Assembly (NCBI RefSeq): GCF_000737065.1
Contig: NZ_AQRC01000018.1
Location: 1-64,000, forward strand
Direction of reading: 5' to 3'
Origin: Thioclava atlantica
GTDB taxonomy: Bacteria > Pseudomonadota > Alphaproteobacteria > Rhodobacterales > Rhodobacteraceae
Length of the DNA: 64,000 bases
Of the stretch, positions 1-64,000 are shown piece after piece. Numbering within the stretch: position 1 is the first letter of the stretch; the number at the start of each line of letters is the position of its first letter. The translations under genes and the position numbers were made by a program. A model generated the notes under the pieces. The model was not told where the DNA came from. It saw nothing but the letters and a program-made list of their open reading frames with translations, and did no database searches.

Positions 1-16
1 TACCAGGAGATGAAGC

Positions 17-637
17 ATGAAGACTGTCGCCCCCGCCGACGTGAAGCCCGATTTCGAGATCGAGGTCGAACGCGCTGTTCGGCATTACGTGTCCGAACAC
101 GACGGACACTTTCCCAGCCGGCGTAATTTGCTCGCAACCCTCGGCGGTTCGATGCGCGACCTCAATCCGGTCGCGAAGCGAGTGATCCAGCGTCTCCGAG
201 AAGAACAGACCGCTCTTGCGGCACTGCCCGAAATGCCGGAGACTGTGAGGGATGCGACCGATCGCCTCGCGCAGGCGGCTTGGAAAGCCGCGTGCGAGAT
301 CGCAAATTCCGAGATTGAGGCACTCCGCACTTTGCAGGGTAAACGCGAAGCGAGCCAGCGCGCGGAACTCGCAGATCTGGAAGACGTAATCGATGATCTT
401 GAGGAAGCGCTTGATATCGAGCGCCACCGTGCCGACGGCGCGGAGAAGCAGATCCGTACTCTCGAGTGTCGGCTCGAGACGGCAGATCGCGAGATCTCCG
501 CGCTCAACGGCCGCCTCGCTGAACGTGCTGCATTGCTCGAAAGCCTGCGTGCAGAGATCACGCAGCCGACCCCGGGTCGGGGCTCAAAGCGCGAGAACAA
601 TTCCGGTTTCGACCGCGACGACACTCCCGAAACTTGA
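17..637 (+). CDS. KfrA-like DNA-binding protein with coiled coil
   Basis: A 206-residue protein. The N-terminal ~65 residues resemble the KfrA N-terminal DNA-binding domain, with the signature 'PSRRNLLATLGGSMRDLNP'. Residues ~95-180 are rich in Glu, Arg, Leu and Ala in heptad-like spacing and should form a coiled coil. KfrA proteins are plasmid-borne DNA-binding proteins that autoregulate and assist partition, so this gene suggests plasmid ancestry for the element. An AGGAG lies about 8 bases before the ATG. It converges on the relaxase gene with a 24 bp gap. The right element carries a partial copy at the window end. The DNA-binding role is family-based; its target is unknown. Confidence 0.72.
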   Translation: MKTVAPADVKPDFEIEVERAVRHYVSEHDGHFPSRRNLLATLGGSMRDLNPVAKRVIQRLREEQTALAALPEMPETVRDATDRLAQAAWKAACEIANSEIEALRTLQGKREASQRAELADLEDVIDDLEEALDIERHRADGAEKQIRTLECRLETADREISALNGRLAERAALLESLRAEITQPTPGRGSKRENNSGFDRDDTPET

Positions 638-661
638 AGATCGCGACGGCCGGTGCGGCAC

Positions 662-2218
662 TCACCGCTCATCGCCGCCCCGGTCCTTGTCGTCCCGCTT
701 TCTTCGCTCGTTTCGTGTTTTCACCCGCGCGACGTTCATGAGCAGTTTTCTGAGTTTGCCGTGTTCGTTTTCACGGCTCGCTGGCGGCACGAAACGCGCG
801 ATCAGTTGCGCCGCAAATTCGGTCACGCGCGCCACGGCGTCGAGGCCATCAGCGAGTTCACGGCGCTCATTTTCGACCAAGGCCTCGGCCTCGGACTGGG
901 CGGTCGTTCTCAAACGGATCAGCGCTGCGCCGAACATCTCTGCCAATCGCGTCGCCGCATGCGGCGCGCGTCTCATACGTGCCAGTTTCGCATGAACGTT
1001 TTGGTTCGCCTGCGTCGGCATGCTCTTTAGCAATTCAGGCACCTGATCTGGTGTGGATTCTCCTTGTCCGAGCAGGTCCGCTGTCGCGAGAACGGCATCC
1101 GCAGATCGATATCTTCGATCCGCGATCTTCTCTTTCTCCGCTATCTCTTTTTTCTGAGCGATCAGATCTTCGCGCGCATCCCGCAGGCTCCGTTCCTGGG
1201 CATCGAGTTCGCGCGCTCGAGCCACATTCGCTTCAGCCTGAGAGGCGTTTTTTCGGCGCAAAATTTCGTCGCGCTCCTTCTCTTCGTTGACTGCGGCGCG
1301 ATCCGCTGCAATCTCCGCGAGCTGTTCATTGCCGAGCTCGAAAAGACCGTCAGCGGCACGTTTGAGACCTTCCGCCGCCTCGCGTGTTTTCCGAGCCTCC
1401 GCAGCCCGGCGCTCATCCATTGCGTTCTGTTCACGAGCCGCCATTCGGCTACGATATTCTGCGCGTGACAACCGCTCGCGCCGGGGGCCGAACCTGAGCA
1501 ATCCTGCATGGCGCGAGACCGCCTCGTAGAGGTCGTCCTGCCACTCTCTCATCGCTTCTTTGTAGAGCTTGTCGCCCGCTTCTTTTGATAACGACCGCTC
1601 GCGCCCGCAGGCGCGTAAATGCCGTCTGCTGTCTTCAAAAGCCGCGCGTCCCGGATGCAAATCAATGACCGATCCTCGCTCCCGATCGAGCGCGAAGAGA
1701 TGAATGTGCATCTGCGCTTCATCAGTGTGAATAACAGCGAGCGCAAACTCTCCTCCAGCCGCCTCGATCCGACCCTTCTCAAAGGCGATAAAGTCGTCGA
1801 AGACGGCGCGGCACTCCTTCATCAAAGCTGGATCGGCGCGCGCTTCCGCGCTCGTGATCGGAAGCGAAAACACGCTCGAATAAAGCGTGTGCGCATCTTT
1901 CCGAAGCTTGCGCTGGCGCGTCGTCTTCACGCCGGTCTTTGGATCTGTGTACGGAAAGCTTTGCCTGACATTCGTGGCTTGCTCATGTGCTGCGCGAAGT
2001 TCGTCGAAAGACCCACACGAGCCGGGAATGATTTGCGGTGTCCGGTCCGGGCGGTGCACATGATCGCAACTTCCCTCGACACGCTCGGCTTCGTCGAGAA
2101 CTTGCTGCGCCCGCCAGGCGCGCTGACCGTTTTTGCGCGCGCGACCGACCTTCCCACCCGACTTCGTCGCTCCCTGTTGCGACCAAGTTTCCACATGCCC
2201 GAATTGATAGCCCCGCAT
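662..2218 (-). CDS. MobV/Pre-type plasmid mobilization relaxase
   Basis: A 518-residue protein. Residues 160-175 read 'AVIHTDEAQMHIHLF', the MobV (Pre/Mob) motif with H164, D166, E167, H171 and H173; this His cluster binds the metal used for strand nicking at oriT. 'RKDAHTLYSSVFSLPI' (~107-121) fits the conserved block before it. From ~260 the protein is Glu/Arg/Ala-rich and probably coiled coil. Relaxases of this group nick the transferred strand and stay bound to its 5' end, using a conjugation machine supplied in trans. The right-hand homologue has exactly the same length. A conserved short inverted repeat ~110 bp upstream is the candidate oriT. Confidence 0.8.
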   Translation of the reverse strand: MRGYQFGHVETWSQQGATKSGGKVGRARKNGQRAWRAQQVLDEAERVEGSCDHVHRPDRTPQIIPGSCGSFDELRAAHEQATNVRQSFPYTDPKTGVKTTRQRKLRKDAHTLYSSVFSLPITSAEARADPALMKECRAVFDDFIAFEKGRIEAAGGEFALAVIHTDEAQMHIHLFALDRERGSVIDLHPGRAAFEDSRRHLRACGRERSLSKEAGDKLYKEAMREWQDDLYEAVSRHAGLLRFGPRRERLSRAEYRSRMAAREQNAMDERRAAEARKTREAAEGLKRAADGLFELGNEQLAEIAADRAAVNEEKERDEILRRKNASQAEANVARARELDAQERSLRDAREDLIAQKKEIAEKEKIADRRYRSADAVLATADLLGQGESTPDQVPELLKSMPTQANQNVHAKLARMRRAPHAATRLAEMFGAALIRLRTTAQSEAEALVENERRELADGLDAVARVTEFAAQLIARFVPPASRENEHGKLRKLLMNVARVKTRNERRKRDDKDRGGDER

Positions 2219-2326
2219 CCAATTTACCTCGCGTCCCGTTTGATGGATGCGGGGGAACTAAGGACAACTGAGAACGATCAAAAAACGCGCGCGCCGCCGC
2301 GTGCCTCGGGCGCTGTAACAACAGGC

Positions 2327-2343
2327 TATAGGGTCCGACTATA
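2327..2343. other. Candidate origin of transfer (oriT) inverted repeat
   Basis: TATAG and CTATA are separated by 7 bases (GGTCCGA), about 110 bp upstream of the relaxase start. The right element has the related TATAGTCGGTCCCTATG at 61982-61998 at the same distance. MobV oriTs, such as that of pMV158, are short inverted repeats upstream of mob, with a TATAGTG...TATA pattern. The assignment rests on position, symmetry and conservation only. Confidence 0.4.
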
Positions 2344-2608
2344 CCTATTCGCCGCTTCGCTTCGAATACGTGTCGGCCAAAGGGGGGCGTAGCCGGCCCC
2401 CTCTGGACACCCCCGGCGCCGCTACGCGCCACATGGGGGAAGCTCCACATCCCCCAAACCCCCTGGCGCTTTCAGCGAGACGATGGGGAAGCCGCGCATC
2501 CCCCTTCGAACCCCCAGCCCAGCCCCACTCGTCGCTCTGTCTGGACCCTCCGGCGCCCCCGGCGGGTCGAGAGGAGGGCCTCTCGACGCTCTCCCTGATG
2601 CGCATCTG

Positions 2609-2632
2609 GATCGCTTGACTGGTCAAGCGATC
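2609..2632. repeat. 11-bp-arm palindrome
   Basis: Arms GATCGCTTGAC and GTCAAGCGATC flank two bases. The right copy (61694-61717) keeps GATCGCTTGA and TCAAGCGATC with a changed central 4 bases, so the arms rather than the centre are conserved. It may bind a dimeric protein, for example the KfrA-like protein or a partition or transfer regulator. Confidence 0.75.
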
Positions 2633-2670
2633 AATCGCGGTCGCGAAGGAAGCATCGAAGCATGTCTTGC

Positions 2671-2698
2671 TTGCGTGCTGCGTCTTTGACGCACGCAA
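2671..2698. repeat. Hairpin TGCGTC-TTT-GACGCA with extended arms
   Basis: GCGTC and GACGC flank TTT, and the outer bases TTGCGTGC and ACGCAA extend pairing with a small bulge. The same hairpin is present in the right element near 61625-61655. It lies ~85 bp before gene C and could be an operator or a transcript structure. Confidence 0.5.
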
Positions 2699-2781
2699 TC
2701 AAGCCACGCTCCGACGCTCCGATATCGGTGAAGTGGTGAGGTGTTGTGCGTCGTTTTCTCTACTCAAAAAACGAGGCTCTC

Positions 2782-3270
2782 ATGCTCCACGACCGATACC
2801 TTCACCTGCTGCCGGGTGGGCAGCTCAAGCCAGGTGATATTTTTCTGATGCGCTTCCCTTACGCCTCTGATCGAAGGCCCGACGGGGAGTTCGATATTCC
2901 GCCCGGCACACGGCCTTGCTTGCTGCTTTCTCGGGGTCGTATCGGCGATGCACCGATGAATATCGTAGCACCAGGGCTGAGCCCCGAAGGGCGGCTGGTG
3001 CGGCCTGATGACATCGTCGTCGAAAATGACGATCAGGCGAAAGCTTGCGGCCTCTATCGCCCGACAATGTTTCGTGCATCGCACCGCCTTTTCATCTCGA
3101 CCGGCTCCAAATTGTTCGAACGCAACGCACGCATTGGTCGACTCGGGCTTGAACAGCGAGCGCAGTTCGAAGCAGTCGATAAGATGCTTGCGAACGTGCG
3201 ACTGGAAATCCGATCGCGGCTCAAGCCGCCGGTCGAAATCTACCGTCCGAAGCGCCTCCTGAAACCGTGA
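2782..3270 (+). CDS. Element gene C: unknown 162-aa protein, weakly PemK/MazF-like
   Basis: Start chosen at 'MLHDRY', which has ACGAGG six bases upstream and matches the start of the right-hand homologue, also 162 aa; an in-frame ATG at 2746 is not shared. The region 'LKPGDIFLMRFPY...GTRPCLLLSRG' resembles the first strands of PemK/MazF-fold toxins, which begin with a GDI strand and have an RP-hydrophobic strand. The C-terminal 'RIGRLGLEQRAQFEAV' recalls the helix ending those proteins. The match is distant and no antitoxin gene is identified. The two copies are roughly three-quarters identical by eye. Genes B and A follow on the same strand, separated by hairpins. Confidence 0.6.
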   Translation: MLHDRYLHLLPGGQLKPGDIFLMRFPYASDRRPDGEFDIPPGTRPCLLLSRGRIGDAPMNIVAPGLSPEGRLVRPDDIVVENDDQAKACGLYRPTMFRASHRLFISTGSKLFERNARIGRLGLEQRAQFEAVDKMLANVRLEIRSRLKPPVEIYRPKRLLKP

Positions 3271-3284
3271 ACCGCGCTCCTCAC

Positions 3285-3338
3285 AGGGCTGCAGTTTCCG
3301 TCCGCCTAACTCGTGAGGCGGACAGATCTTGCAGCTCT
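3285..3338 (+). promoter_or_regulatory. Nested stem-loop between element genes C and B
   Basis: An outer 9-bp stem (AGGGCTGCA with TGCAGCTCT, one G-U pair) encloses a symmetric 6/6 interior loop and an inner perfect 8-bp stem (GTCCGCCT with AGGCGGAC) with an 8-base loop. It ends 35 bases before gene B. The right element keeps the same design at 60988-61039 with changed loop sequences. It could be a terminator/attenuator after gene C, as the downstream bases are TCTGTTTCTCTC, or a leader structure for gene B. Confidence 0.7.
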
Positions 3339-3373
3339 GTTTCTCTCCCATTCTACATTTGAAAGGCCCCGAC

Positions 3374-3814
3374 ATGACCCACGCAAAACACCCGTCCGAA
3401 ATGACGCGCGAGGAACTCCGCGCTGAGCGCGATCTGCTCACGACAATCGTCGCTGCCGCAACCGAGCGCCCGACTCCGCAAGAACTGGCGAACGCGCCCG
3501 TTATCGACGATTGGTCGCTGTTCACCGCCTTCAATGACCTCTCGCTCGTGGGCCGCATCACGGAAGCCAGCGGACGGTCCCGAGTACGAACGACGCGCGC
3601 GATCATCGCACTCGATGATGATCTGAACTGGGTGCGTTTTGAAGACGGATGGATGCGTCTCGGACCGAGGTTCGGCTTCGAGCCGGCTGCTCCCTATGTC
3701 GTCTATCATGCTGCACCGGTGGATCTACGCAAGATCCGCGACCATCTGAAAGGACAGGCCAAGTGGCTTCAGATGGCGCTGGATGCTCTCGGCAGTCCAC
3801 GTTGCGATGCGTGA
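3374..3814 (+). CDS. Element gene B: unknown 146-aa protein
   Basis: Start chosen at 'MTHAKHPSEMT', with GAAAGG upstream and the same N-terminus and 146-aa length in the right copy; an ATG 45 bases earlier is ignored. No family was recognised. The best conserved part is the centre, 'LTEASGR', 'IALDDDL' and 'MRLGPRF' at ~60-100, followed by a helical tail ending 'ALDAL...RCDA'. The two copies are a little over half identical, far less than the recombinases. It is soluble by composition, with no membrane segment or signal. The symmetric structured leader suggests expression control separate from gene C. Confidence 0.6.
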   Translation: MTHAKHPSEMTREELRAERDLLTTIVAAATERPTPQELANAPVIDDWSLFTAFNDLSLVGRITEASGRSRVRTTRAIIALDDDLNWVRFEDGWMRLGPRFGFEPAAPYVVYHAAPVDLRKIRDHLKGQAKWLQMALDALGSPRCDA

Positions 3815-3836
3815 CTCCAGGATCGCCCGATGGGCG

Positions 3837-3893
3837 GCTGAACTACGATCGCTGCGGCCCTGCAAGTGAGGGCCGCAGCGCCCACCGTTCAGC
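3837..3893 (+). promoter_or_regulatory. Nested stem-loop immediately before element gene A
   Basis: The outer 7-bp stem GCTGAAC/GTTCAGC encloses a symmetric 7/7 interior loop, a perfect 11-bp inner stem (GCTGCGGCCCT/AGGGCCGCAGC) and a 7-base loop. It ends 16 bases before the gene A start, just upstream of the GAGAGGA ribosome site. The right copy at 60415-60470 has the same outer stem, 7/7 loop and inner stem. It has the same architecture as the hairpin before gene B. Confidence 0.75.
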
Positions 3894-3909
3894 TTCGAGA
3901 GGATGCCAG

Positions 3910-4245
3910 ATGTTTCATCAAATGAACCCGATTGACGACGTGATCTCGACGGCGCGCGCAGCTCTCGAGGCGCTCGACGTCTTGCCTCCCGTGTGCTTGT
4001 TCGGCACCGAGGAAGATCGCAATTTTTTCCAGGAAATCGTGACACGCGGCGAGGTACTCGGCGAGGATTTTCGTGATTGCGGTGCAAGCCTCTTGCGGCA
4101 CTTGGCACGAGTTGAACCTGACGAAGAATTCGAGCGGAATATCGACACAGCTATCCGTCAGATCCGAGATGCTATTAACGGCTCGTACTGCATTGCAGGA
4201 GGCCTTGCCAACGATTGCGAGCCCGGCATCCTGCGAGCCGCATGA
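3910..4245 (+). CDS. Element gene A: unknown 111-aa helical protein
   Basis: Start at 'MFHQMNPIDD', preceded by GAGAGGA. The right copy starts 'MFQQPNRID' and has the same length. No family recognised. The conserved core is 'GE-V-GEDFR--GA--LRHLAR-E' (~45-70), and predicted structure is mostly helical. The copies are only about half identical, making this the most diverged gene of the element. It is the last of the C-B-A set and precedes the conserved non-coding block and recombinase module. Confidence 0.6.
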   Translation: MFHQMNPIDDVISTARAALEALDVLPPVCLFGTEEDRNFFQEIVTRGEVLGEDFRDCGASLLRHLARVEPDEEFERNIDTAIRQIRDAINGSYCIAGGLANDCEPGILRAA

Positions 4246-4274
4246 CCGAGATACGACGCGAAATTGCGTCAGAT

Positions 4275-4523
4275 ATGGCGGTGTGAACCCGCCCGGGCGC
4301 GCCATAGAAACCTTTCCGCACTTGCTCCACAAACCAAACGGAACCGGCGCGCCCGACTTTCCCTCAATACCAGCTAATTTGAAGCGGAGGCTGGAAGATG
4401 ATTTCATTTGAAATCTGAAAGCCTAATAAAAACAAGGGACTCACAATTTTCTTCGACTTTGATGGAGTCGCTCCAACTGGTCGAACGAATATTGAATCCA
4501 GAATGAATTTTCTGGAGCCAAAA
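4275..4523. promoter_or_regulatory. Highly conserved non-coding block upstream of the recombinase module
   Basis: About 250 bases are almost identical to the reverse complement of 59782-60030: roughly five differences by eye, including one single-base indel. No conserved ORF explains this. It contains a 9-bp inverted repeat, GGGCGCGCC (4295-4303) and GGCGCGCCC (4346-4354), then a smaller dyad ATTTCA/TGAAAT near 4400. Plausible roles are a recombinase promoter with an operator, an internal recombination site, or an RNA leader. Confidence 0.6.
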
Positions 4524-4715
4524 ATGTCCTTTCACCCCCGCGATTTCACCAGCCGTCCCGCCGCGAACGACAACGGCGACACCCCGGCATCCCATGACTT
4601 CTCCCAGATCGTATCGGCGGAGCAATTCGTCCGCTTCCTCGCACGCGTCGAAACGCATCGTCTGCACGCGGCAAATGAGAATGCAGCTCCGGGTCCGGGC
4701 CAAATTCAGGAGTAA
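4524..4715 (+). CDS. Small conserved ORF (63 aa) before the serine recombinase
   Basis: Starts 'MSFHPRDFTSRPAAND', with TGGAG 8 bases upstream. It is nearly identical in the right element, with a Thr/Ala change at one position. It ends 6 bases before the recombinase ATG, so the two are probably co-translated. No family recognised; possibilities are a small recombination accessory or directionality protein, or a regulator. It has no obvious helix-turn-helix, and its Asn/Ala/Pro-rich C-terminus may be disordered. Confidence 0.55.
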   Translation: MSFHPRDFTSRPAANDNGDTPASHDFSQIVSAEQFVRFLARVETHRLHAANENAAPGPGQIQE

Positions 4716-4721
4716 ACGACG

Positions 4722-6446
4722 ATGACTAAACGGGTCGCAGTCTATGCACGCTACAGCTCGAAACTTCAAAAACCGACCTCGATCGACGATCAGTTCGACA
4801 TGGCGGAGCGGTTTGTGCAGACACAGGGCTGGACCGTGACACAGCGCTTTTCGGACTCGGAAATATCCGGGCGCCTCGGCCAACGCCCCGGTCTTCTGGA
4901 ACTGCGCGAGGCGATCCGACGGGGAGCAGTCGATGTCGTCGTCGTCGAAGCAATCGACCGTCTTACACGTAACGTGACCCACGCGCTTCAAGTCTTCGAT
5001 CTGATGAGCTTCGCAAACGTTGAACTGCACTCGCTTGCAGAAGGACCTCAGAATTTCATGTCGGTCATGCTGACGGCCTGGGGTGCGCGTGAATATTCGA
5101 ACAACGTGAGCATCCATACTAAACGTGGCATGCAAGCGGCGTTGAAACGTGGGACGTTCCATATGCGTCCATATGGCTATCGCAAATGCGAAGGCGGCGA
5201 AGGCCGCAACCGGGAGATCGACCCCGATCAAGCGCGGATCGTTCGGCGAATTTTCAAAGCGTTCGCCGACGGTCAGTCCGCGCTCGCTATCGCGCGGAGG
5301 CTGAATGCCGAAGGAGTTCCGGCACCGCGCGGGGGCACGTGGGAGCCAAGGACGATTCGTGGCAACAGCGAGCGCCAAGAGGGTATTCTGCACAACCCAA
5401 TCTATATTGGGCGTGTACTCATGTTCCGTACGACGAAGCGCGTCCATCCGGAAACCGAAGCCTGCATCACGGAAGCGACGCCAGATCGGGTTGAAGAAAT
5501 CGAGATCCCGGCGCTCAGGATCATCCCTGATGATCTCTGGGAAACGGTACAGGCGCGCGCCGCGAAAACCCGACGCAAAGTCACCACTCGCAATAACCCC
5601 GAGGGCGCACGGCGTAAGAAATACCTCCTGAGCGGGCTTCTCAAGTGCGGCTGCTGCGGTCGGAGCTTCGTTATGCGTTCCCGGGACCATTACGGCTGCG
5701 CAGAGAACATCAAAGGGGTGTGCCCAAACCGCTCCTACATCAAGCGCGAAGAGATCGAAGCGCGGGTCTTCGCGGCGCTCCGCGCGCCGCTCGCCTCGGA
5801 AAGCCTTTCAAAGACGTTCGATGCCGCGTTGAGGCAAGAGATTAAGGAGCTTCGCAAGAACCCACCAGATGCGGAACTGCCAGCCAAACGCGCCGCCTTG
5901 GCGCGAACAGAAAGGAAGCTGCGGGCGCTTGTGCAATCCCTCGAAGATGGCGCGCCTTTTGCTCAGATTAAGGGACGCATGAATGAACTTGAGGCACAGC
6001 AGGTGAAATTTAAGGACGAAATCGCTCGCCTCAGTGCTGCAGCGCCAAGTGCGCCCCTCGTCGAGAGCGCGCCTCGAGCTCTCTCTCAGGTGCTGCAGAG
6101 GCTCGAAGAAGTGCTGAATGACCCAGACTGGGTCCATCTCGCAAACGAGCACTTATCAGCGCTGATAGGGAGGGTGACGCTGCTACCCGACCCAGATGAC
6201 GAAGGTCGTATGAACGCCGAGATCATGATCGATCTCGGCGATTTGCTTTCTGCCGCAGGCCAGCCACAAGCGCTCGCAGACGCCTTCCGTGACAAACGAC
6301 AAATAACGGTCAAACTGGGGGCGCTGCCCCCTCTGGCTTCGCCATTCACCCCCGGGATATTTGGGGCATTTGGAAGCCTGCTTCCTCTTGATCCAAATAT
6401 CCCGGGGGAGACCGCGAAGCGGGCGGGGGCAGAGCCCCCGTTTTGA
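4722..6446 (+). CDS. Large serine recombinase (integrase) of the left element
   Basis: 574 residues. The N-terminal resolvase domain (1-~145) has 'VYARYSSKLQ' with catalytic Ser at about residue 12, 'DSEISG', and 'DRLTR' arginines. The recombinase domain follows (~155-270, 'PYGYRK', 'IARRLNAEGVPAPRGG'). A zinc ribbon 'LKCGCCGRSF...YGC...GVCPN' sits near 305-335, then a coiled coil at ~370-440. This is the layout of large serine integrases, which join attP and attB through Ser-DNA links. The C-terminal ~25 residues are translated through the REP-like palindrome and into host sequence, so they differ from the right copy after 'AFGS'. Confidence 0.9.
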   Translation: MTKRVAVYARYSSKLQKPTSIDDQFDMAERFVQTQGWTVTQRFSDSEISGRLGQRPGLLELREAIRRGAVDVVVVEAIDRLTRNVTHALQVFDLMSFANVELHSLAEGPQNFMSVMLTAWGAREYSNNVSIHTKRGMQAALKRGTFHMRPYGYRKCEGGEGRNREIDPDQARIVRRIFKAFADGQSALAIARRLNAEGVPAPRGGTWEPRTIRGNSERQEGILHNPIYIGRVLMFRTTKRVHPETEACITEATPDRVEEIEIPALRIIPDDLWETVQARAAKTRRKVTTRNNPEGARRKKYLLSGLLKCGCCGRSFVMRSRDHYGCAENIKGVCPNRSYIKREEIEARVFAALRAPLASESLSKTFDAALRQEIKELRKNPPDAELPAKRAALARTERKLRALVQSLEDGAPFAQIKGRMNELEAQQVKFKDEIARLSAAAPSAPLVESAPRALSQVLQRLEEVLNDPDWVHLANEHLSALIGRVTLLPDPDDEGRMNAEIMIDLGDLLSAAGQPQALADAFRDKRQITVKLGALPPLASPFTPGIFGAFGSLLPLDPNIPGETAKRAGAEPPF

Positions 6447-6495
6447 CGGTTGAATGTCGCCATCCGTCGAGGGAGGGGGCCGCTCCCCCTCTTGT
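6308..6495. repeat. REP-like intergenic palindrome at the left element/host junction
   Basis: Arms GGGATATTTGG (6354-6364) and CCAAATATCCC (6393-6403) surround GGAAGC/GCTTCC. Outside them lie GGGGGCGCTGCCCCC on the element side and GGGGGCAGAGCCCCC plus GAATGTCGCCATCC on the host side. The host-side half matches the unoccupied repeat at 54248-54357. The recombinase stop codon lies inside it, and typA ends just beyond. It is a likely attachment region and may also terminate typA and recombinase transcripts. Confidence 0.7.
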
Positions 6496-6496
6496 C

Positions 6497-8317
6497 TCAC
6501 CCCTCGGCGCGTGCGGCGCGCTTGCGCTCATGCGGGTCGAGATGGCGCTTGCGCAGGCGGATCGCCTTGGGCGTCACTTCGACCAGTTCGTCATCGTTGA
6601 TATAGGCGATGGCTTCCTCGAGGCTCATCCGGACCGGCGGGGTGAGGCGGACCGCCTCGTCGGTGCCGCTGGCGCGCACGTTGGTCAGCTTCTTGCCCTT
6701 GAGCGGGTTCACCTCGAGATCGTTGTCGCGCGAATGCTCGCCGATGATCATGCCGGTATAGACCTGCTCCTGCGCGCCGATAAAGAGCTTGCCGCGCTCC
6801 TCGAGGTTCCACAGCGCATAGGCCACGGAGACGCCGTTCTCCATCGAGATCAGCACGCCCTGACGACGGCCTTCGATCTGGCCCTTGTAGGGCGCCCAGC
6901 CGTGGAAGATCCGGTTCAGCACGCCGTTGCCGCGCGTGTCGGTCATGAACTCGCCCTGATAGCCGATGAGCCCGCGCGAAGGCACGAGCGCCACGATGCG
7001 GGTCTTGCCGTGGCCGGCGGGGCGCATCTCGGTCATCTCGCCCTTGCGCGCGCCGGTGAGCTTCTCGATCACCACGCCGGAGAATTCGTCATCGACATCG
7101 ACGATGACCTCCTCGATCGGCTCCATGCGCTGGCCGTCCTCCTCGCGGAAGATCACGCGCGGACGCGAGATCGACAGCTCGAAGCCCTCGCGGCGCATGT
7201 TCTCGATCAACACGCCCATCTGCAATTCGCCACGGCCCGAGACCACGAAGGCCTCGCCGCCCGGCGTGTCCTCGACCTTGATCGCGACATTGGTCTCGGC
7301 CTCCTTCATCAGGCGTTCGCGGATCACCCGCGATTGCACCTTGGAGCCGTCCTTGCCGGCGAGGGGCGAGTCGTTGATACCGAAGGTCACCGAGATCGTC
7401 GGCGGGTCGATCGGCTGCGACGGGAGCGCTTCCTCGACCTCGGGGGCGCAGAGCGTGTCGGCCACGGTGGCCTTGGTCATGCCCGCGACGGTGACGATAT
7501 CGCCCGCGACGGCCTCGTCGATCGGCTGCTGGGAGAGGCCGCGGAAGGCGAGGATCTTGGTGCAGCGGAAGCTCTCGATCCGCTCGCCCTTGCGCGAGAG
7601 CGCCTTGAGCTGGTCTCCCACCTTCAGCCGGCCGGCCTCGACGCGGCCGGTGAGGATGCGGCCGATGAACGGGTCGGCCGAAAGGGTGGTGGCGAGCATC
7701 TGGAACGGCTCGTCGGCGCGGAATTCCTGTTTCGGCGGCTCGACATGCTTCAGGATCAGGTCGAAGAGCGCGTCGAGGTTCTCGCGCGGCCCGTCCAGTT
7801 CGGTATCCGCCCAGCCCCCGATGCCGGAAGCATAGAGATGCGGGAAGTCGAGCTGGTCGTCATCGGCGCCGAGATTGGCGAAGAGGTCGAAGACCTCGTC
7901 GAGCGCGCGGTCGGGTTCGGCCGCGGGCTTGTCGACCTTGTTGAGCACGACGATCGGCTTGAGCCCGAGCGCGAGGGCCTTCGAGGTCACGAACTTGGTC
8001 TGCGGCATCGGGCCTTCGGCCGCGTCCACCAGCAGCACCACGCCATCGACCATCGACAGGATGCGTTCGACCTCGCCGCCGAAATCGGCGTGGCCGGGGG
8101 TGTCGACGATGTTGATCCGCGTGCCTTTCCACTCGACCGAGGTGGCCTTGGCGAGAATGGTGATGCCGCGTTCACGTTCGATGTCGTTGCTGTCCATCGC
8201 ACGTTCGGCGACGGCCTGGTTTTCACGAAACGCGCCGGATTGGCGCAGGAGCTGGTCCACGAGCGTCGTCTTGCCGTGGTCCACGTGAGCAATGATCGCA
8301 ATGTTGCGAAGATCCAT
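6497..8317 (-). CDS. typA: Translational GTPase TypA/BipA
   Basis: 606 residues, normal for the family. The GTPase domain shows 'AHVDHGKT' (G1), 'RERGITI' (G2), 'DTPGHADF' (G3) and 'NKVD' (G4). The EF-G-like domains and the TypA-specific C-terminus ('[17 protein letters not shown]', '[10 protein letters not shown]') follow. TypA is a ribosome-binding GTPase that helps assemble the large subunit and supports growth under cold or stress. It stands alone on this strand. Its 3' end adjoins the REP and element junction by about 50 bp and is intact, so insertion did not damage it. Confidence 0.96.
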
Positions 8318-8404
8318 GGGAGGTCCGCCTGTTTTGAAGTTGCCCCGCCCTTAAGGGAAAAAACCGGGCGCGGCTAGCCCCCGGAAACCGATCGCGGTGG
8401 CAGT

Positions 8405-8740: not shown

Positions 8741-8758
8741 GGCGTGCAGGGTGCCAGA

Positions 8759-9379: not shown

Positions 9380-9464
9380 GACCTAAATATGAGGCAGATT
9401 CGCCGAATTTCAAAACCGCCCCATGCAGGGCGGCTATGAGCGCGCGGAATGGGTCAGGGGGCGT

Positions 9465-54247: not shown

Positions 54248-54357
54248 CTTCCAAATGCTCCAAATATCCCGGGGGGCGCGTCAGTGCGGGGGCAGAGCCC
54301 CCTCTTGGACTGTGAATTGTCGCCATCCGGCGACGGATGGGGCAGCGCCCCCTGCCC
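54248..54357. repeat. Unoccupied full REP-like repeat
   Basis: CCAAATGCTCCAAATATCCC leads, then GGGGGCAGAGCCCCC, GAATTGTCGCCATCC and GGGGCAGCGCCCCC. The same modules in the same order form the host side of the left element junction (~6393-6490), so this copy shows what an empty site may look like. Confidence 0.75.
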
Positions 54358-54371
54358 TCAAACTCCTTCCC

Positions 54372-55244: not shown

Positions 55245-55382
55245 GAACCTCTCCCTTGCGTGATGCTCCGTGCCCGCATTCAATGGCGCAGGCGCGTTGA
55301 TTGTGGCTTTGCGCTCAACTACTAACGCCACAACCGGGCGCGTCAACCTGCGCGTCCCGAGGGACAGGTTCAGAGGAACTGG

Positions 55383-57863: not shown

Positions 57864-59583
57864 GCCAACGATCCCCGCGGGCGCCTCCGGCGGGGATATT
57901 TGAGGCATTTGGAAGCGGGCGCCACTTGCTTCCAAATGCCCGAAATATCCCGGGGGTGAATGCCGAAGCCAGAGGGGGCAGCGCCCCCAGTTTGACCGTT
58001 ATTTGCTGCCTGCCGCGGAATACGTCGGTGAGCACTTTCGGCTGGTCTGCGGCGGAAAGCAAATCGCCGAGATCTATCGAGATCTCGGCGTCCATATGTC
58101 CTTCCTTTTTTTGGTTTGGTAGCAGCGTCACCCTCTCGATCAGAGCCGACAAATGCTCGTTTGCGAGATGCACCCAGTTAGGATCGCTCAGCGTCTCTTC
58201 GAGTCCACAGAGAACCTGCTCAAGGGCCCGAGGGGCGCTCTCGACGAGAGGTGCCGTCGGCTTTCCGGTGCTGAGGCGAGAGATTTCTTCGGTCAATTTC
58301 AGCTGCTGTGCCTCGAGTTCGTTCATACGCGCCTTTAGTTGGGCAAACGGTGCTCCTTCCTCCAACGAGCGGACGAGTGTGCGCAAGCCCTTCTCTGTTC
58401 GCGCCAGTGCAGCACGTTTAGCGGTTAGCTCCGCATCTGGCGGGTTTTTACGAAGCTCCTGAATCTCTTGCTTCAATGCGGCGTCGAACGCCTTGGAAAG
58501 GCTTTTCGAAGCGAGCGGTGCCCGGAGCGCCGCAAAGACGCGCGCTTCGATCTCTTCGCGCTTGATGTACGATCGGTTCCGGCAGGCTCCCTTGATGTTC
58601 TCAGCGCAGCCGTACGCCTCTTTCGACCGCATGACGAAACTCCGCCCACAGCAGCCGCATTTGAGAAGCCCGCTCAGGAGGTATTTCTTACGCCGTGCAC
58701 CCTCCGGATTATTGCGAGTGGTGACTTTGCGTCGGGTTTTCGCGGCGCGCGCCTGTACTGTTTCCCAGAGATCATCAGGGATGATCCTGAGCGCCGGGAT
58801 CTCGATCTCTTCGACTCGATCAGGCGTCGCTTCGGTGATGCAGGCTTCGGTTTCCGGGTGGACCCGCTTCGTCGTCCGAAACATGAGTACACGCCCAACA
58901 TAGATCGGATTGTGGAGGATGCCCTCCTGTCGCTCGATGTTGCCACGAATTGTCCTTGGTTCCCACGTACCGCCACGCGGCGCGGGAACACCCTCGGCGT
59001 TCAGCCTCCGCGCGATCGCGAGGGCGGACTGCCCGTCGGCGAACGCCTGAAAAATCCGACACACTATCGCAGCCTGCTCGGGATCGACCTCTCGGTTGTG
59101 ATCGCCAGAACCCTCGGATTTGCGGTAGCCGTAAGGGCGCATATGGAACGTGCCACGTTTCAGCGCCGCTTGCATACCGCGTTTAGTATGGATGCTCACG
59201 TTGTTCGAATATTCACGCGCCCCCCACGCCGTGAGCATGACCGACATGAAGTTCTGGGGCCCCTCGGCCAACGAGTGCAGTTCAACGTTTGCGAAGCTCA
59301 TCAGATCGAAGACCTGGAGCGCGTGCGTCACGTTTCTCGTCAGTCGATCAACAGCTTCGACGAGAACAACATCGACTGCGTTCCGCCGGATTGCCTCGCG
59401 CAACTCAAGGAGACCCGGTCGCTGACCGAGGCGCCCCGAGATTTCGGAATCGGAGAAGTGTTGCGTCACTGTCCATCCCTTTGCCTTTGCAAACCGCTCT
59501 GCCATTTCGAACTGATCGTCGATCGAAGTCGGTTTTTGAAGCTTCGAGCTGTAGCGCGCGTAGACAGCGACACGTTTCGTCAT
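57823..59583 (-). CDS. Large serine recombinase (integrase) of the right element
   Basis: 586 residues. It has the same domains as the left homologue: 'VYARYSSKLQ' with catalytic Ser ~12, 'DRLTR', 'PYGYRK', zinc ribbon 'LKCGCCGRSF...YGC...GACRN', coiled coil. One zinc-region difference is Pro to Arg in the last Cys motif. It matches the left copy closely through 'AFGS', then ends with ~35 unrelated residues translated from host DNA, stopping inside the antisense acylase gene. Either tail is probably dispensable. Confidence 0.9.
   Translation of the reverse strand: MTKRVAVYARYSSKLQKPTSIDDQFEMAERFAKAKGWTVTQHFSDSEISGRLGQRPGLLELREAIRRNAVDVVLVEAVDRLTRNVTHALQVFDLMSFANVELHSLAEGPQNFMSVMLTAWGAREYSNNVSIHTKRGMQAALKRGTFHMRPYGYRKSEGSGDHNREVDPEQAAIVCRIFQAFADGQSALAIARRLNAEGVPAPRGGTWEPRTIRGNIERQEGILHNPIYVGRVLMFRTTKRVHPETEACITEATPDRVEEIEIPALRIIPDDLWETVQARAAKTRRKVTTRNNPEGARRKKYLLSGLLKCGCCGRSFVMRSKEAYGCAENIKGACRNRSYIKREEIEARVFAALRAPLASKSLSKAFDAALKQEIQELRKNPPDAELTAKRAALARTEKGLRTLVRSLEEGAPFAQLKARMNELEAQQLKLTEEISRLSTGKPTAPLVESAPRALEQVLCGLEETLSDPNWVHLANEHLSALIERVTLLPNQKKEGHMDAEISIDLGDLLSAADQPKVLTDVFRGRQQITVKLGALPPLASAFTPGIFRAFGSKWRPLPNASNIPAGGARGDRWLRCREVSRAAQDG
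57880..57998. repeat. REP-like palindrome at the right element/host junction
   Basis: Arms of about 24 bp at 57893-57916 (ending CATTTGGAAGC) and 57928-57951 (starting GCTTCCAAATG) surround 11 bases. Element-side modules GGGGGCAGCGCCCCC and AGTTTGAC follow, matching the left junction. The right recombinase gene reads through it and stops in the acylase 3' end. Confidence 0.7.
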
Positions 59584-59589
59584 CTTGGT

Positions 59590-59781
59590 TTACTCCTGAA
59601 TTTGGCCCGGACCCGGAGCTGCATTCTCATTTGCCGCGTGCAGACGATGCGCTTCGACGCGTGCGAGGAAGCGGACGAATTGCTCCGCCGATACGATCTG
59701 GGAGAAGTCATGGGATGCCGGGGTGTCGCCGTTGTCGTTCGCGGCGGGACGGCTGGTGAAATCGCGGGGGTGAAAGGACAT
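59590..59781 (-). CDS. Small conserved ORF (63 aa) before the right recombinase
   Basis: Starts 'MSFHPRDFTSRPAAND' with TGGAG upstream and ends 6 bp before the recombinase, as in the left copy. A longer in-frame start exists 39 codons upstream only here, created by one base insertion and an ATG in the conserved block; the left copy has a stop there. The short form is therefore preferred. Function unknown. Confidence 0.55.
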   Translation of the reverse strand: MSFHPRDFTSRPAANDNGDTPASHDFSQIVSAEQFVRFLARVEAHRLHAANENAAPGPGQIQE

Positions 59782-60030
59782 TTTTGGCTCCAGAAAATTC
59801 ATTCTGGATTCAATATTCGTTCGACCAGTTGGAGCGACTCCATCAAAGTCGAAGAAAATTGTGAGTCCCTTGTTTTTATTAGGCTTTTCAGATTTCATAT
59901 GAAATCATCTTCCAGCCTCCGCTTCAGATTGGCTGGTATTGAGGGAAAGTCGGGCGCGCCGGTTCCGTTTGGTTTGTGGAGCAAGTGCGGAAAGGTTTCT
60001 GTGGCGCGCCCGGGCGGGTTCACACCGCCA
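59782..60030. promoter_or_regulatory. Highly conserved non-coding block (right copy)
   Basis: Nearly identical to the reverse complement of 4275-4523, with the 9-bp GGGCGCGCC/GGCGCGCCC inverted repeat preserved. Conservation stops abruptly near 60030, where the diverged 3' end of gene A begins. Between 60031 and 60062 nothing is recognised. Confidence 0.6.
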
Positions 60031-60062
60031 TTGAGTAGACGCCGCTCGGCGTCATACTTTGA

Positions 60063-60398
60063 TCATGCTGCTCGCTCGATACTGGTCGCGCATGCGGCGC
60101 CGAGATCCACAGAAACGCGATAAGAGCTATTGATTACGTCCCGAAGTTGACGCATCGCGTTGTCGAGTTCGCGCGCAAATCTTTCCTCGGCCTCGATCCG
60201 CGCGAGATGACGCAGGATCGCCGCGCCTGCCGCCCGGAAATCCTCTCCGATCACCTCGCCGTTGATCACAAGTCGCTCGCAAAAATCGCAATCGCGCTCT
60301 GCGCCCCGAAGAGCGTCAGCCGGCAGCGCATGGAGAGCGTCGATTGCCACGCGTGCCATCGCTTTCACATTGTCGATCCGGTTCGGTTGTTGAAACAT
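60063..60398 (-). CDS. Element gene A (right copy), unknown 111-aa protein
   Basis: Starts 'MFQQPNRIDNV' with AAAGGAT upstream; same length as the left copy but only about half identical. Shares the 'GEVIGEDFR--GAAILRHLARIE' core. Cys at ~37-40 (the 'RDCDFCE' stretch) are not conserved on the left, so they are not a shared metal site. Preceded by the nested hairpin. Confidence 0.6.
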   Translation of the reverse strand: MFQQPNRIDNVKAMARVAIDALHALPADALRGAERDCDFCERLVINGEVIGEDFRAAGAAILRHLARIEAEERFARELDNAMRQLRDVINSSYRVSVDLGAACATSIERAA

Positions 60399-60414
60399 CG
60401 GACATCCTTTCAAA

Positions 60415-60470
60415 GCTGAACTGCGGGCGCTGCGGCCCTCATCGAGGGGCCGCGGCGGTTGCGGTTCAGC
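60415..60470 (-). promoter_or_regulatory. Nested stem-loop before gene A (right copy)
   Basis: Outer GCTGAAC/GTTCAGC stem is unchanged from the left copy. It encloses a 7/7 interior loop with different bases and a 10-bp inner stem GCTGCGGCCC/GGGCCGCGGC, which carries one A-C mismatch on the transcribed strand. The shape is retained where loop sequences have changed. Confidence 0.7.
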
Positions 60471-60505
60471 CGATCCCGTCAGGATCATTTCTCGCAAATT
60501 CGCGA

Positions 60506-60946
60506 TCACGCATCGCAGCGCATCTCGCCGAGCGCATCGAGCGCCTTCTGCGCCCAAAATGCTTGTCCCTCGAGTTGCGTGCGGATCCCTCTCAGATCTG
60601 TCGCGACGGCTCGCATCGCGAGATGCGGCGGGGACTCTTCGACGGAGAACCGCGGTCCGAGGCGCATGTATCCGTCTTCGAGATAGACCCACTCGAGATC
60701 GTCATCGAGCGCGATGAGAGCTCGCGTGATCAGCTTTCGGGTCCGACCGCTGGCTTCCGTCAGGCGGCCAAAGAGCGAGATGTCTTCGAAGCCAGTGAAA
60801 AGCATCCAGTCTTCGAGAAACGGCGCGTTCTCGAGATCCTTTTGGGACGGCTTCGCGGTCGCTCCGTGAACGACGTTTGCGAGCACATTGCGCTCTTTGC
60901 GGAGTTCTTCGGCGGTGAGTTCCGAGGGATGTTTATCGTGGGTCAT
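60506..60946 (-). CDS. Element gene B (right copy), unknown 146-aa protein
   Basis: Starts 'MTHDKHPSELTAEELRKERN', same length as the left copy. Conserved centre 'LTEASGR', 'ALIALDDDLEWV', 'GYMRLGPRF' and C-terminal 'KALDAL...RCDA'. No family recognised. Somewhat over half identical to the left protein. Confidence 0.6.
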   Translation of the reverse strand: MTHDKHPSELTAEELRKERNVLANVVHGATAKPSQKDLENAPFLEDWMLFTGFEDISLFGRLTEASGRTRKLITRALIALDDDLEWVYLEDGYMRLGPRFSVEESPPHLAMRAVATDLRGIRTQLEGQAFWAQKALDALGEMRCDA

Positions 60947-60987
60947 GGTTAATCTTTCGAAAATTTTGGGGTTCAGAAGACGAAGCA

Positions 60988-61039
60988 GGGCTGCAAGATC
61001 CGTCCGCCTCGGCAAGACGGCGGACGGACGCTGCAGCCC
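60988..61039 (-). promoter_or_regulatory. Nested stem-loop between genes C and B (right copy)
   Basis: Outer GGGCTGCA/TGCAGCCC (8 bp), symmetric 5/5 interior loop, inner CGTCCGCC/GGCGGACG (8 bp), 10-base loop. Same layout as 3285-3338, with both stems shifted slightly but still paired. Confidence 0.7.
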
Positions 61040-61055
61040 CGATCGGCGGCGCGGT

Positions 61056-61544
61056 TTACGGTTGGATGAGTGGTTTCGGGCGGTAGATCGCGACACGCGG
61101 CCTCAACCGGGACCGGACTTCACGCGGTGCGGTTGCGAGCAGCTTTTCGACTGCCTCGAATTGTTCGCGCTGCGCGGGTCCGAGGCGCCCGATGCGGGCA
61201 TTGCGCTCGAACAGGTCAGATCCGGTTGCGATGAAGAGCCGATGCGACGCGCGGAACATCGTTGGACGATAGAGGCCACAGGCGGACGCCTGGTCTTCAT
61301 CGGAAATGACGATGTCATCCTCTCGTAGCAGCCGCCCCTCGGGGCTCACGCCTGGAGCGACAATGTTCATGGGGGTGTCGCCGATTAGACCGCGAGAGAG
61401 CAGTAAGCACGGACGTGTGCCTGGCGGAATTTCGAACTCGCCGTCGCGACGGCGGTCGGAACCATACGGGAAGCGCATCAGAAAGATATCGCCAGGTTTG
61501 AGTTGGCCGCCCGGGAGCAGTCGGAGGTATCGATCGTGGAGCAT
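61056..61544 (-). CDS. Element gene C (right copy), weakly PemK/MazF-like
   Basis: 162 residues from 'MLHDRYLRLLPGGQLKPGD', equal in length to the left copy and about three-quarters identical. Shares 'GDIFLMRFPY', 'IPPGTRPCLLLSRG', 'MNIVAPG-SPEGRL' and 'CGLYRPTMFRASHRLFI'. The resemblance to PemK/MazF fold is distant and no toxin activity is shown. Confidence 0.6.
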   Translation of the reverse strand: MLHDRYLRLLPGGQLKPGDIFLMRFPYGSDRRRDGEFEIPPGTRPCLLLSRGLIGDTPMNIVAPGVSPEGRLLREDDIVISDEDQASACGLYRPTMFRASHRLFIATGSDLFERNARIGRLGPAQREQFEAVEKLLATAPREVRSRLRPRVAIYRPKPLIQP

Positions 61545-61693
61545 GAGAGCCTCGTTTTTTGAGTAGAGAAAACGACGCGCAATACCTCACCACTTCACCG
61601 ATATCGGAGTATCGGAGCGTGGCTTGATTGCGTGCGTCAAAGACGCTGCACGCAAGCAAGACATGCTTCGAGGCTTCCTTCGCGACCGCGATT

Positions 61694-61717
61694 GATCGCT
61701 TGAACAGTCAAGCGATC
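61694..61717. repeat. 10-bp-arm palindrome (right copy)
   Basis: GATCGCTTGA and TCAAGCGATC around ACAG. The left copy keeps both arms with centre CTGG. Confidence 0.75.
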
Positions 61718-61981
61718 CCGATGCGTATCAGGGAGAGCGTCGAGAGGTCCTTCTCTCGACCCGCCGGGAGCGCCGGAAGGTCCAGGAAGAGCGGCGAGCG
61801 GCCCATGGGCTGGGGGTCCGAAGGGGGATGCGCGGCTTCCCCATCGTCTCGCTGAAAGCGCCAGGGGGTTTGGGGGATGTGGAGCTTCCCCCAATGTGCC
61901 GCGAAGCGGTGCGGGGGGGTGTCCAGAGGGGGGCTATGCCTCACTTTGGCCGACACGTATTCGAAGCCCTGCGAGAATACG

Positions 61982-61998
61982 TATAGTCGGTCCCTATG
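61982..61998. other. Candidate oriT (right copy)
   Basis: TATAGTCGGTCCCTATG, an imperfect dyad with ATAG/CTAT arms, ~110 bp upstream of the relaxase start. It matches the left candidate with about two changes. Confidence 0.4.
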
Positions 61999-62106
61999 GC
62001 CTGTTGTCACAGCGCCCGAAGAACGCGGCGGCGCGCGCATTTTTTGATCGTTCTCAGTTGTCCTTAGTTCCCCCGCATCCATTAAACGGGACGCGAGGCA
62101 AATTGG

Positions 62107-63663
62107 ATGCGGGGCTATCAATTCGGGCATGTGGAAACTTGGTCGCAGCAGGGAGCTACGAGGTCGAGTGGCAAGGTCGGACGCGTGCGCAAAAACGGTC
62201 AGCGCGCCTGGCGTGCAGAGCAGGTTCTCGACGAAGCTGAGCGTGTCGAGGGGAGTTGCGATCATGTGAGCCGCCCCAATCCGGCGCCCCAGATCATTGC
62301 GGGCACGTGTGGGTCTTTCACTGAACTGCGCGCCGCGTATGAGCAGACTGCGAATGTCACTCAAAGCTTTCCATACACAGATCCGAAGACCGGCACGAAG
62401 ACGACGCGCAAGCGCAAGCTTCGGAAAGATGCGCATACGCTTTATTCAAGCGTGTTCTCGCTTCCGATCACGAGCGCCGACGCGCGCGCCGATCCAGCTT
62501 TGATGAAGGAGTGCCGCGCCGTCTTCGACGACTTTGTCGCCTTTGAGAAGGATCGGATCGCGGCGGCTGGGGGAGAGTTTGCGCTCGCTGTTATTCACAC
62601 TGATGAAGCGCAGATGCACGTCCATCTCTTCGCGCTCGATCGCGAGCGAGGGTCGGTGATCGATTTGCATCCAGGTCGCGCCGCTTTTGAAGACCGCAGA
62701 AGGCATCTGCGAGCCTGCGGGCGCGAGCGGTCGTTATCGAAAGAAGCGTGCGATAAGCTCTACAAAGATGCGATGAGGGAGTGGCAGGACGACCTCTACG
62801 AGGCGGTCTCGCGCCATGCAGGATTGCTGAGGTTCGGTCCCCGGCGCGAGCGGTTGTCACGCGGAGAGTATCGTAGCCGAATGGCGGCTCGTGAACAGCA
62901 CGCAATGGATGAGCGCCGGGCTGCGGAGGCTCGGAAAACACGCGAGGCGGCGGAGGGCCTCAAGCGAGTTGCTGACGGTCTTTTCGAGCTCGGCAATGAA
63001 CAACTCGCGGAGATTGCAGCGGAGCGAGCCGCACTTAACGAAGAGAAGGAGCGCGACGAAACTTTGCGTCGAGAAAACGCGCATCAGGCTGAAGCGAATG
63101 TGGCGCGCGCGCGCCAACTCGATGCCCAGGAACGGAGCCTGCGGGATGCGCGCGAAGATCTGGTCGCTCAGAAAAAAGAGATAGCGGAGAAAGAGAAGAT
63201 CGCGGATCGAAGATATCGATCTGCGGATGCCGTTCTCGCGACAGTGGACCTGCTCGAAAAAGGAGGACCCACGCCAGATCAGGTAGCGGAATTACTGAAG
63301 GCCGCGCCGGTGCAGGCGAACGAAAACGTTCGTGCAAAACTGGCACGTATGAGACGCGCACCACATGCGGCGGTGCGCATGGCGGAGATGTTCGGGGCAG
63401 TGCTGACGCGTCTGCGAGCGACCGCCCAGGACGAGGCCGAGACCTTGGTCGAAAATGAGCGTCGTGAACTCGCTGAAGGTCTCGACGCCGTAGCGCGCGT
63501 GACCAACTTCGCGGCGGAACTGATCGCGCGCTTCGTGCCGCCAGCGAGCCGGGAAAACGAACATGGCAAGCTCAGAAAACTGCTCATGAACGTCGCGCGG
63601 GTAAAGACACGAAACGAACGAAGAAAGCGGGACGACAAGAGCCGGGGCGGCGATGAACGGTGA
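62107..63663 (+). CDS. MobV/Pre-type relaxase (right element)
   Basis: 518 residues, equal in length to the left copy. The metal motif 'AVIHTDEAQMHVHLF' is intact (H164, H171, H173). The C-terminal coiled-coil region is present and the ending is the same type ('NERRKRDDKSRGGDER'). Both elements therefore keep an apparently functional relaxase. Convergent with the KfrA-like gene. Confidence 0.8.
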   Translation: MRGYQFGHVETWSQQGATRSSGKVGRVRKNGQRAWRAEQVLDEAERVEGSCDHVSRPNPAPQIIAGTCGSFTELRAAYEQTANVTQSFPYTDPKTGTKTTRKRKLRKDAHTLYSSVFSLPITSADARADPALMKECRAVFDDFVAFEKDRIAAAGGEFALAVIHTDEAQMHVHLFALDRERGSVIDLHPGRAAFEDRRRHLRACGRERSLSKEACDKLYKDAMREWQDDLYEAVSRHAGLLRFGPRRERLSRGEYRSRMAAREQHAMDERRAAEARKTREAAEGLKRVADGLFELGNEQLAEIAAERAALNEEKERDETLRRENAHQAEANVARARQLDAQERSLRDAREDLVAQKKEIAEKEKIADRRYRSADAVLATVDLLEKGGPTPDQVAELLKAAPVQANENVRAKLARMRRAPHAAVRMAEMFGAVLTRLRATAQDEAETLVENERRELAEGLDAVARVTNFAAELIARFVPPASRENEHGKLRKLLMNVARVKTRNERRKRDDKSRGGDER

Positions 63664-63690
63664 GTGCCGCACCGGCCGTCGCGCTCGTCG

Positions 63691-64000
63691 TCACGTGTCG
63701 GGAGAGTCGTGGCGGTCAGATCCGGAATTATTCTCGCGCATTGAGCCGCGCGCGGGGTCCGGCTGCGTGATCTCTGTGCGCAGGCTTTCGAGCAATTCGG
63801 CACGTTCCGCGAGACGGCCATTGAGCGCGGAGATCTCGCGATCTGCCTTTTCGAGCCGACACTCGAGAGTGCGGATCTGCTTCTCCGCACCATCGGCGCG
63901 GAGGCGTTCGGCGTCACGGGCTTCCTCAAGATCGTCGATTACGTCCTCAAGATCCGCGAGTTCCGCACGCTGGGTCGCATCGCGTTTACCCTGCAAAGTG
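63691..64000 (-). CDS. KfrA-like protein (right element, C-terminal part only)
   Basis: The window ends inside this gene. The visible ~103 residues align with residues ~105-206 of the left KfrA-like protein ('LADLEDVIDDLEEARD...', 'LNGRLAERAELLESLR'). They are coiled coil and a charged tail; the DNA-binding domain lies beyond 64000. Confidence 0.7.
   Translation of the reverse strand, partial: TLQGKRDATQRAELADLEDVIDDLEEARDAERLRADGAEKQIRTLECRLEKADREISALNGRLAERAELLESLRTEITQPDPARGSMRENNSGSDRHDSPDT

Follow-up and report, generated by a model that had tools for sequence, protein, structure and literature searches.

Two regions at the ends of a Thioclava atlantica contig probably belong to separate serine-recombinase mobilizable elements targeting a repeated intergenic hairpin

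Based on sequence comparison among Thioclava genomes, we propose that two integrative and mobilizable elements (IMEs), here called A and B, inserted separately into the genome of Thioclava atlantica and that their right-hand ends form the extremities of a 64,000-nucleotide stretch of its DNA (the window, bases 1-64000 of contig NZ_AQRC01000018.1, hereafter C18). They very probably belong to one Thioclava family whose serine recombinase targets a multi-copy hairpin repeat, and the 51 kb between them need not have inverted. The window covers nearly all of C18 (64,327 bp), one of 46 contigs of a 3.93 Mb draft genome (G000), which was compared with 15 Thioclava relatives (designated by G-numbers, strain JE_KL1 being G013); blast matches shorter than 150-300 bp were excluded from these comparisons. 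The right-hand, recombinase-side portion of A spans 1..6322 (+) and runs off C18 at base 1, and that of B spans 57983..64000 (-) and goes on to position 64327, where the contig ends; the outer flanks lie outside the window, where only the recombinase-side ends are visible. In a self-comparison of the window, positions 328-6377 align in inverted orientation with 64000-57928 at 83.4% identity over 6,096 columns, a match that exceeds chance. The initial annotation had described two diverged, inverted copies of one mobilizable element around 51 kb of core chromosome; the copies are real (83% over 6.1 kb) but incomplete, both being cut by contig ends. Genes for a KfrA_N protein, a relaxase, a PemK-like protein, a DUF6634 protein and a large serine recombinase are present in both end regions, and the term mobilizable element is reasonable because A and B each carry the serine recombinase and a Mob_Pre/MobV-like relaxase, the relaxase matches being below curated cut-offs. 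The inversion of the intervening segment suggested in the same annotation is an ordinary reading and is unsupported; the interesting part is a family of repeat-targeting serine-recombinase islands with an integration-dependent recombinase end.

The attachment sites are best seen at the 3' end of typA, where the empty site of G001 reads ...GAGAGGGGGC|GCTGCCCCCTCTTTTCC... and the occupied site of G003 has the left junction ...GAGGGGGC|CTAGCCCGACCGATAGT and the right junction ACTATCGGTCAGACA|GGGGGCGCTGCCCCCTCTTTTCC; the downstream DNA of G003 resumes past the element with 86% identity to G001. The crossover core is GGGGGC, in direct orientation at left and right ends (those of A and B lying on separate contigs), and in attP it is surrounded by the inverted arms ACTATCGGTC/GACCGATAGT. 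The attR of A (6298..6331, +) consists of CGACAAATAACGGTCAAACT, the core (6317-6322) and GCTGCCCCC, and the attR of B (57974..58008, -) has its core on the reverse strand at 57983-57988, so that these two cores are the inner ends of A and B. We mapped 12 left ends and 15 right ends of elements or remnants, the latter in G000 (A, B and those on contigs C1 and C26), G013 (2), G003, G015 (2), G007 (2), G010, G001, G002 and G009; the search for ends covered recombinase homologues above 35% identity. The right junction is followed by (G/T)CTGCCCCC in all 15, with an exact GGGGGC core in 13/15, and eight of the 15 relatives carry such a right end. A Thioclava family of large-serine-recombinase elements thus appears, as judged from these junctions, to insert at GGGGGC|(G/T)CTGCCCCC. 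The recombinase genes of A (4722..6446, +) and B (57823..59583, -) both encode proteins with Resolvase, Recombinase and Zn_ribbon_recom domains above cut-offs and 86% identity to one another. Close relatives sit at three different sites, A between typA and AcoR-like, B between SDR and acylase, and the JE_KL1 element at hisE, with recombinases 85-89% identical to that of A. The names SDR, AcoR-like, gyrA, ccdA-like and hisE, as well as Menshen for NsnABC, are provisional labels assigned by inspection.

The target is a repeated intergenic hairpin. The genome of T. atlantica contains 86 GGGGGCNNNGCCCCC sites, against 2 for a reversed control pattern, and a (G/T)CT loop is present on one strand in 37 of 50 sites among the matches listed (86 in total). 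Many of these sites form inverted pairs about 110-125 bp apart with a CCCGGGATATTT centre between them. The repeat at the typA 3' end (6317..6439) has this arrangement, with two GGGGGCNNNGCCCCC hairpins (6317-6331 and 6425-6439) around the CCCGGGATATTT centre, and the RNA fold of 6310-6450 reaches -99.9 kcal/mol. Sequence comparison places a second repeat at the acylase 3' end (57893..57988) and a third, unoccupied repeat stretch at 54248..54353 (hairpin 54288-54302). The unoccupied repeat, taken as 54248-54371, is also the point where about 13 kb found in G015, G010 and G007 is missing. In 600 kb of Thioclava sequence the whole repeat pattern occurs 19 times versus 0 for the control. Of 16 (G/T)CT hairpins there, 9 have the centre on their 3' side and none has it on the 5' side; insertions are therefore directional with respect to the repeat, with the recombinase end facing its centre. 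The large serine recombinase would therefore recombine attP with the GGGGGC(G/T)CTGCCCCC hairpin, the loop of which may set the choice of strand; the junctions are observed, and the biochemistry is deduced from them. The repeats that we inspected, a subset of the 86, sit at gene 3' ends, and the earlier remark that such a pair is unusual around essential genes is consequently not borne out. Because the target repeat has many copies, two related elements can lie 51 kb apart, behind essential genes, without harm. The spacing of A and B is unremarkable: by our own arithmetic, four elements in 3.93 Mb, one of them pieced together from two half contigs, would include at least one pair no more than 51 kb apart with a probability of about 0.16. 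Their inverted orientation has an expectation of 1/2 by the same kind of calculation, and we rejected it as significant.

The second feature of this family is a recombinase gene without a stop codon of its own. The reading frame is open through the core in the recombinases of A, B, the hisE element of G013, the C1 element of G000, G003, G015 (2) and G007 (2). In the circular form, the frame meets a stop at once (...GA*) from the other end of the element in 9/9 elements computed with both ends; the circular forms of A and B were computed from their presumed partner left ends, and both give CTAG, as in the predicted circular junction ...GTCAAACT-GGGGGC-CTAG.... In the integrated form, the frame runs into the host and gains 5 to 189 target-encoded residues beginning LPP (computed tail counts that include the alanine, for which one is to be subtracted). 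In A, the coding sequence belongs to the element up to the core and the codons past 6322 come from the target repeat; in B, the tail is encoded by the target repeat and the end of the acylase gene. Since insertions land in copies of one repeat, the tail would in most of them open with the same residues, LPP. The right end of G013 C2, a tenth case, is likewise open, its left end being absent from its contig. Ten left ends supply the stop as CTAG or CTAA (TAG in 6, TAA in 4), and the other two of the 12 (G010 and G001) have no such stop. In the stop analysis, the right ends of G010, G001, G002 and G009 gave no match and that of C26 could not be framed: the recombinase frames end short of the core by 1,021 bp in G010 and by 233 bp in both G002 and G001, and the frame of G009 is not intact. 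The missing stop therefore holds for two of three subfamilies, and the nine cases are not independent events because the elements share ancestry.

What this arrangement does may be approached from a predicted structure of the A recombinase, which is of low confidence (mean predicted local distance difference test score, pLDDT, 61; predicted template modelling score, pTM, 0.31). In this model the last strand (527-534) reaches precisely to residue 534, where the circular form stops. The target-encoded tail at 538-574 has pLDDT below 50, which suggests that the tail is disordered. One can imagine a self-switching recombinase, in which the circle would produce a compact integrating enzyme, and integration would fuse a disordered tail that alters activity or stability, so that the element stays in place, or can excise with no need of a classical directionality factor; we regard this idea, drawn from the sequence, as doubtful. 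A by-product of placing attP at the 3' end of the recombinase gene is the more likely reading, and the CTA may be needed for recombination itself. At the sequence level, the circle takes its recombinase stop from the other end of the element (CTAG/CTAA), and target DNA replaces that stop after insertion; any effect on the enzyme would follow from this exchange. Among titles and abstract beginnings from a partial body of literature without subscription papers, there is no report of a recombinase stop codon provided by the other element end, nor of a large serine recombinase aiming at such a repeat.

The left halves of A and B lie on other contigs. Using a left-end pattern taken from G013 and a tolerance of 3 mismatches, we found exactly two ends of the A/B type in G000, at C23:4314 and C9:139730, from which C23 extends 14.1 kb and C9 31.7 kb. 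The two ends of C18 are exact reverse complements of each other over 63 bases, and A and B therefore break off at the same homologous base; C9 and C23 terminate in one identical 63-mer, as both ends of C18 do. The break of C18 inside A and B is presumably a short-read repeat break. Adding the 6.3 kb on C18, the elements would measure at least ~20 and ~38 kb, provided that C23 joins B and C9 joins A; both joins are absent from the assembly and were deduced from these ends. A type I restriction-modification locus lies on each of two 4.4 kb contigs, C32 and C33 (both with HSDR_N, C32 also with a type I methylase), which probably belong in the gap between C9/C23 and C18. Blast of C32, C33, C9 and C23 against the relaxase loci of an uncultured Thioclava and of Paracoccus (L136, L137) gave no match, and tblastx yielded scattered fragments of low quality that were disregarded, so that this missing bridge stays inferred. 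The two restriction-modification loci (L174, L175) are ~93-95% identical where aligned, with much of the presumed specificity region unaligned. That a single element was mis-joined into two inverted contig ends would account for the identical 63-mers and the shared homologous base at which C18 halts on either side, but one element cannot yield, in one genome, a pair of copies only 83% identical, a pair of left ends and a pair of restriction-modification contigs (94%); such an assembly artefact is extremely improbable, and we rejected it.

The flanks of the left halves bear on whether the 51 kb segment has inverted. The flank on C23 is the SDR gene, which adjoins the acylase at ~90 bp in G007 and lies 14.6 kb beyond it in G015 and G010. 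The flank on C9 is the AcoR-like gene, which faces the typA 3' end at a distance of 46-81 kb in G015, G013, G006, G007, G010 and G014. Throughout the whole block 6508-54287 and the acylase block, the complete relative G015 shows a single orientation. This synteny is most simply read as SDR-[B]-acylase...typA-[A]-AcoR, which would be colinear with G015: B would have split SDR from the acylase, and A would sit between typA and the AcoR-like gene. If A and B are simple insertions, the flanks are colinear and a 51 kb inversion is neither needed nor shown; the proposed inversion is thus not borne out, since this arrangement keeps the order and orientation of G015. The acylase and typA 3' ends both point outward, as in G000, in 8/11 relatives having both genes on one contig, and a comparison of their order across the genus supports the arrangement to that extent, although the order is not fixed. 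The DNA beyond the typA 3' end varies, differing between G015-like genomes, G001, G003, G009 and G014, and is a recurrent breakpoint.

Homologous recombination between A and B could, from their sequences, still flip 51 kb of core genes in the living population. Relaxase-driven carriage of core genes, also suggested in the initial annotation, would be a generic, Hfr-like possibility. The inverted copies share an exact run of 235 bp and further runs of 64-81 bp, and the JE_KL1 element testifies to exchange between A-like and B-like copies. In 200-column windows, this element is 99-100% identical to A in eight successive windows (A 3351 to ~4925), B being only 60-70% like A over 3351-4327; from 5126 onward it is nearer B in 4/6 windows (B 94, 92, 98 and 90% versus A 80, 84, 84 and 78%). 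It is a mosaic of the A and B types, which shows that copies of this lineage recombine and makes exchange between them plausible. Against an active inversion pair stand the overall identity of A and B (83%, falling to 59-65% in places), the colinear flanks and the shared outward orientation in the 8/11 relatives mentioned above, and we consider it unlikely. A single element duplicated inside G000 into an inverted copy would explain why A and B have the same gene order and the same lineage of ends; it is harder to reconcile with their 17% divergence, with cargo on C9 that differs from that on C23 and with the greater proximity of each, in parts, to JE_KL1 than to the other. Such an origin is highly improbable, and a recent duplication was rejected on the mosaic pattern of JE_KL1.

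Several observations weigh against two separate insertions at a common repeat. A single clean pair of empty and occupied sites was compared, and it comes from the element of G003, not from A or B. No such end is present in the stretches examined of G022, a member of another genus with a recombinase homologue of 43% identity, and the SDR-acylase gap of G007 holds no repeat. The closest relatives by TypA (G003, 96%; G001, 95%) have the acylase elsewhere, and gene order is not fixed, acylase and typA being on the same strand in 3/15 relatives and on different contigs in 4/15. The 46-81 kb typA-AcoR interval of six relatives, which includes gyrA, is missing at the inferred A junction. The ends of C32 and C33, compared with C18, C9 and C23 by end 63-mers in all directions, gave no match, leaving the bridge missing, and DUF4368 is absent among Pfam matches at E 0.1 in the window proteins.

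Separate insertion of A and B at hairpin repeats can be compared with several known systems. IMEs with serine recombinases also combine a site-specific recombinase and a relaxase (in A and B a candidate below curated cut-offs), with cargo between, and have attL and attR with a short direct core; unlike in those, the Thioclava target is an intergenic hairpin repeat of ~86 sites instead of one conserved gene, and the cargo includes defence and stress genes. Insertion sequence (IS) elements that target repetitive extragenic palindromic (REP) or bacterial interspersed mosaic element (BIME) repeats insert into palindromic extragenic repeats and use DDE or DEDD transposases. They are thus alike in their palindromic extragenic target, but have no large serine recombinase with attP arms. 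The integrase of ICEKp1 is, we assume, of the tyrosine family. ICEKp1 has been described as switching its integrase promoter according to state, the joined circle ends altering integrase expression (PMC13023037); there the promoter is switched, whereas in the Thioclava elements it is the protein end. Mycobacteriophage BPs shows integration-dependent immunity, with an att site in the 3' part of a gene and integration that shortens the repressor (PMC4557955); integration likewise alters a protein C-terminus, but in Thioclava it is the recombinase that gains residues, and the target encodes them. Among the multi-targeting large serine recombinases, one family uses many attB sites, a likeness to the Thioclava family, and DUF4368, a hallmark of the clade, occurs in 63% of it (Durrant et al. 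2022, PMC10083194). That clade has an AT-rich target and a TT core, whereas the Thioclava target is long and GC-rich and its recombinase has no DUF4368 in the Pfam scan. We therefore say only that the recombinase behaves like a multi-targeting type and do not claim class membership, as DUF4368 is absent, although it is not a strict requirement. If our proposal is true, intergenic hairpin repeats of the Rhodobacterales type would offer landing sites all over the genome to mobilizable islands with defence and stress genes, explaining how several related islands coexist harmlessly near essential genes, and their dispersed homology could serve later rearrangements. Through the stop-codon arrangement, integration would then change the recombinase protein, which is relevant to serine-integrase tools.

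A and B are larger mobilizable elements with defence and stress-tolerance cargo. On C9, the region 146617-161320 (L170) within the element holds a stress-tolerance set (Hsp20, FtsH, ClpK-like, bacterioferritin-like, Trx and KefB-like) in an alphaproteobacterial host; compared with the transmissible locus of stress tolerance, FtsH and Trx are above cut-off, ClpK reaches 1611 bits (cut-off 1900), and Hsp20 and KefB are below. The same contig has, in the stretches 140278-143492 and 167264-168289, NsnA/NsnB/NsnC defence genes and a DS11 CBS anti-phage protein above cut-off. Two more elements, of a sister type, are found in G000, at C1:371472-377622 and at C10:2928 with C26:8409-8428, C10 and C26 presumably being halves of one element; the first-type left-end pattern occurs in G000 only in the C1 and C10 elements. 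The Mob_Pre relaxase of the C10 element is above cut-off (26.5 versus 25.5).

In the window, the relaxase gene of A (662..2218, -) encodes 518 aa with matches below cut-off to Pfam Mob_Pre (15.9 bits, cut-off 25.5) and MobV (14.2, cut-off 100), and that of B (62107..63663, +) also encodes 518 aa, 89% identical. These equal lengths confirm those in the initial annotation, as do the 162 and 146 aa proteins in the open-reading-frame list. The closest relaxase is that of Thioclava sp. JE_KL1; a tblastn with the A relaxase found 68 plasmid records, all <60% identical and some annotated as mobilization or plasmid recombination protein, and a search of PDB sequences with the relaxase alignment gave 0 matches. 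Element A further encodes a KfrA_N DNA-binding protein (17..637, +; PF11740, 32.1 bits, cut-off 26.1). Both PemK/MazF-like proteins match PF02452 weakly, below the cut-off of 23.1 (A, 2746..3270, +, 17.0 bits; B, 61056..61544, -, 16.3 bits). The DUF6634 protein of A (3329..3814, +) reaches 27.1 bits for PF20339 (cut-off 27), and the DUF6634-like protein of B (60506..61096, -) 19.5 bits, below cut-off. The adjoining core genes are typA beside A (6497..8317, -; TIGR01394, 935.6 bits) and, beside B, the acylase (55383..57863, +; PF01804, 700.7 bits), which is indeed of the penicillin-amidase family; the housekeeping character of the interval was likewise confirmed by TypA, NADP-Icd, SufB, SufD, SufS, EF-Ts, the aldolase CbbA and transketolase. 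Rfam families in the window number 0. A direct repeat at 8747-9064 and 9455-9770 (71% identity, 322 columns) probably corresponds to paralogous membrane-protein genes.
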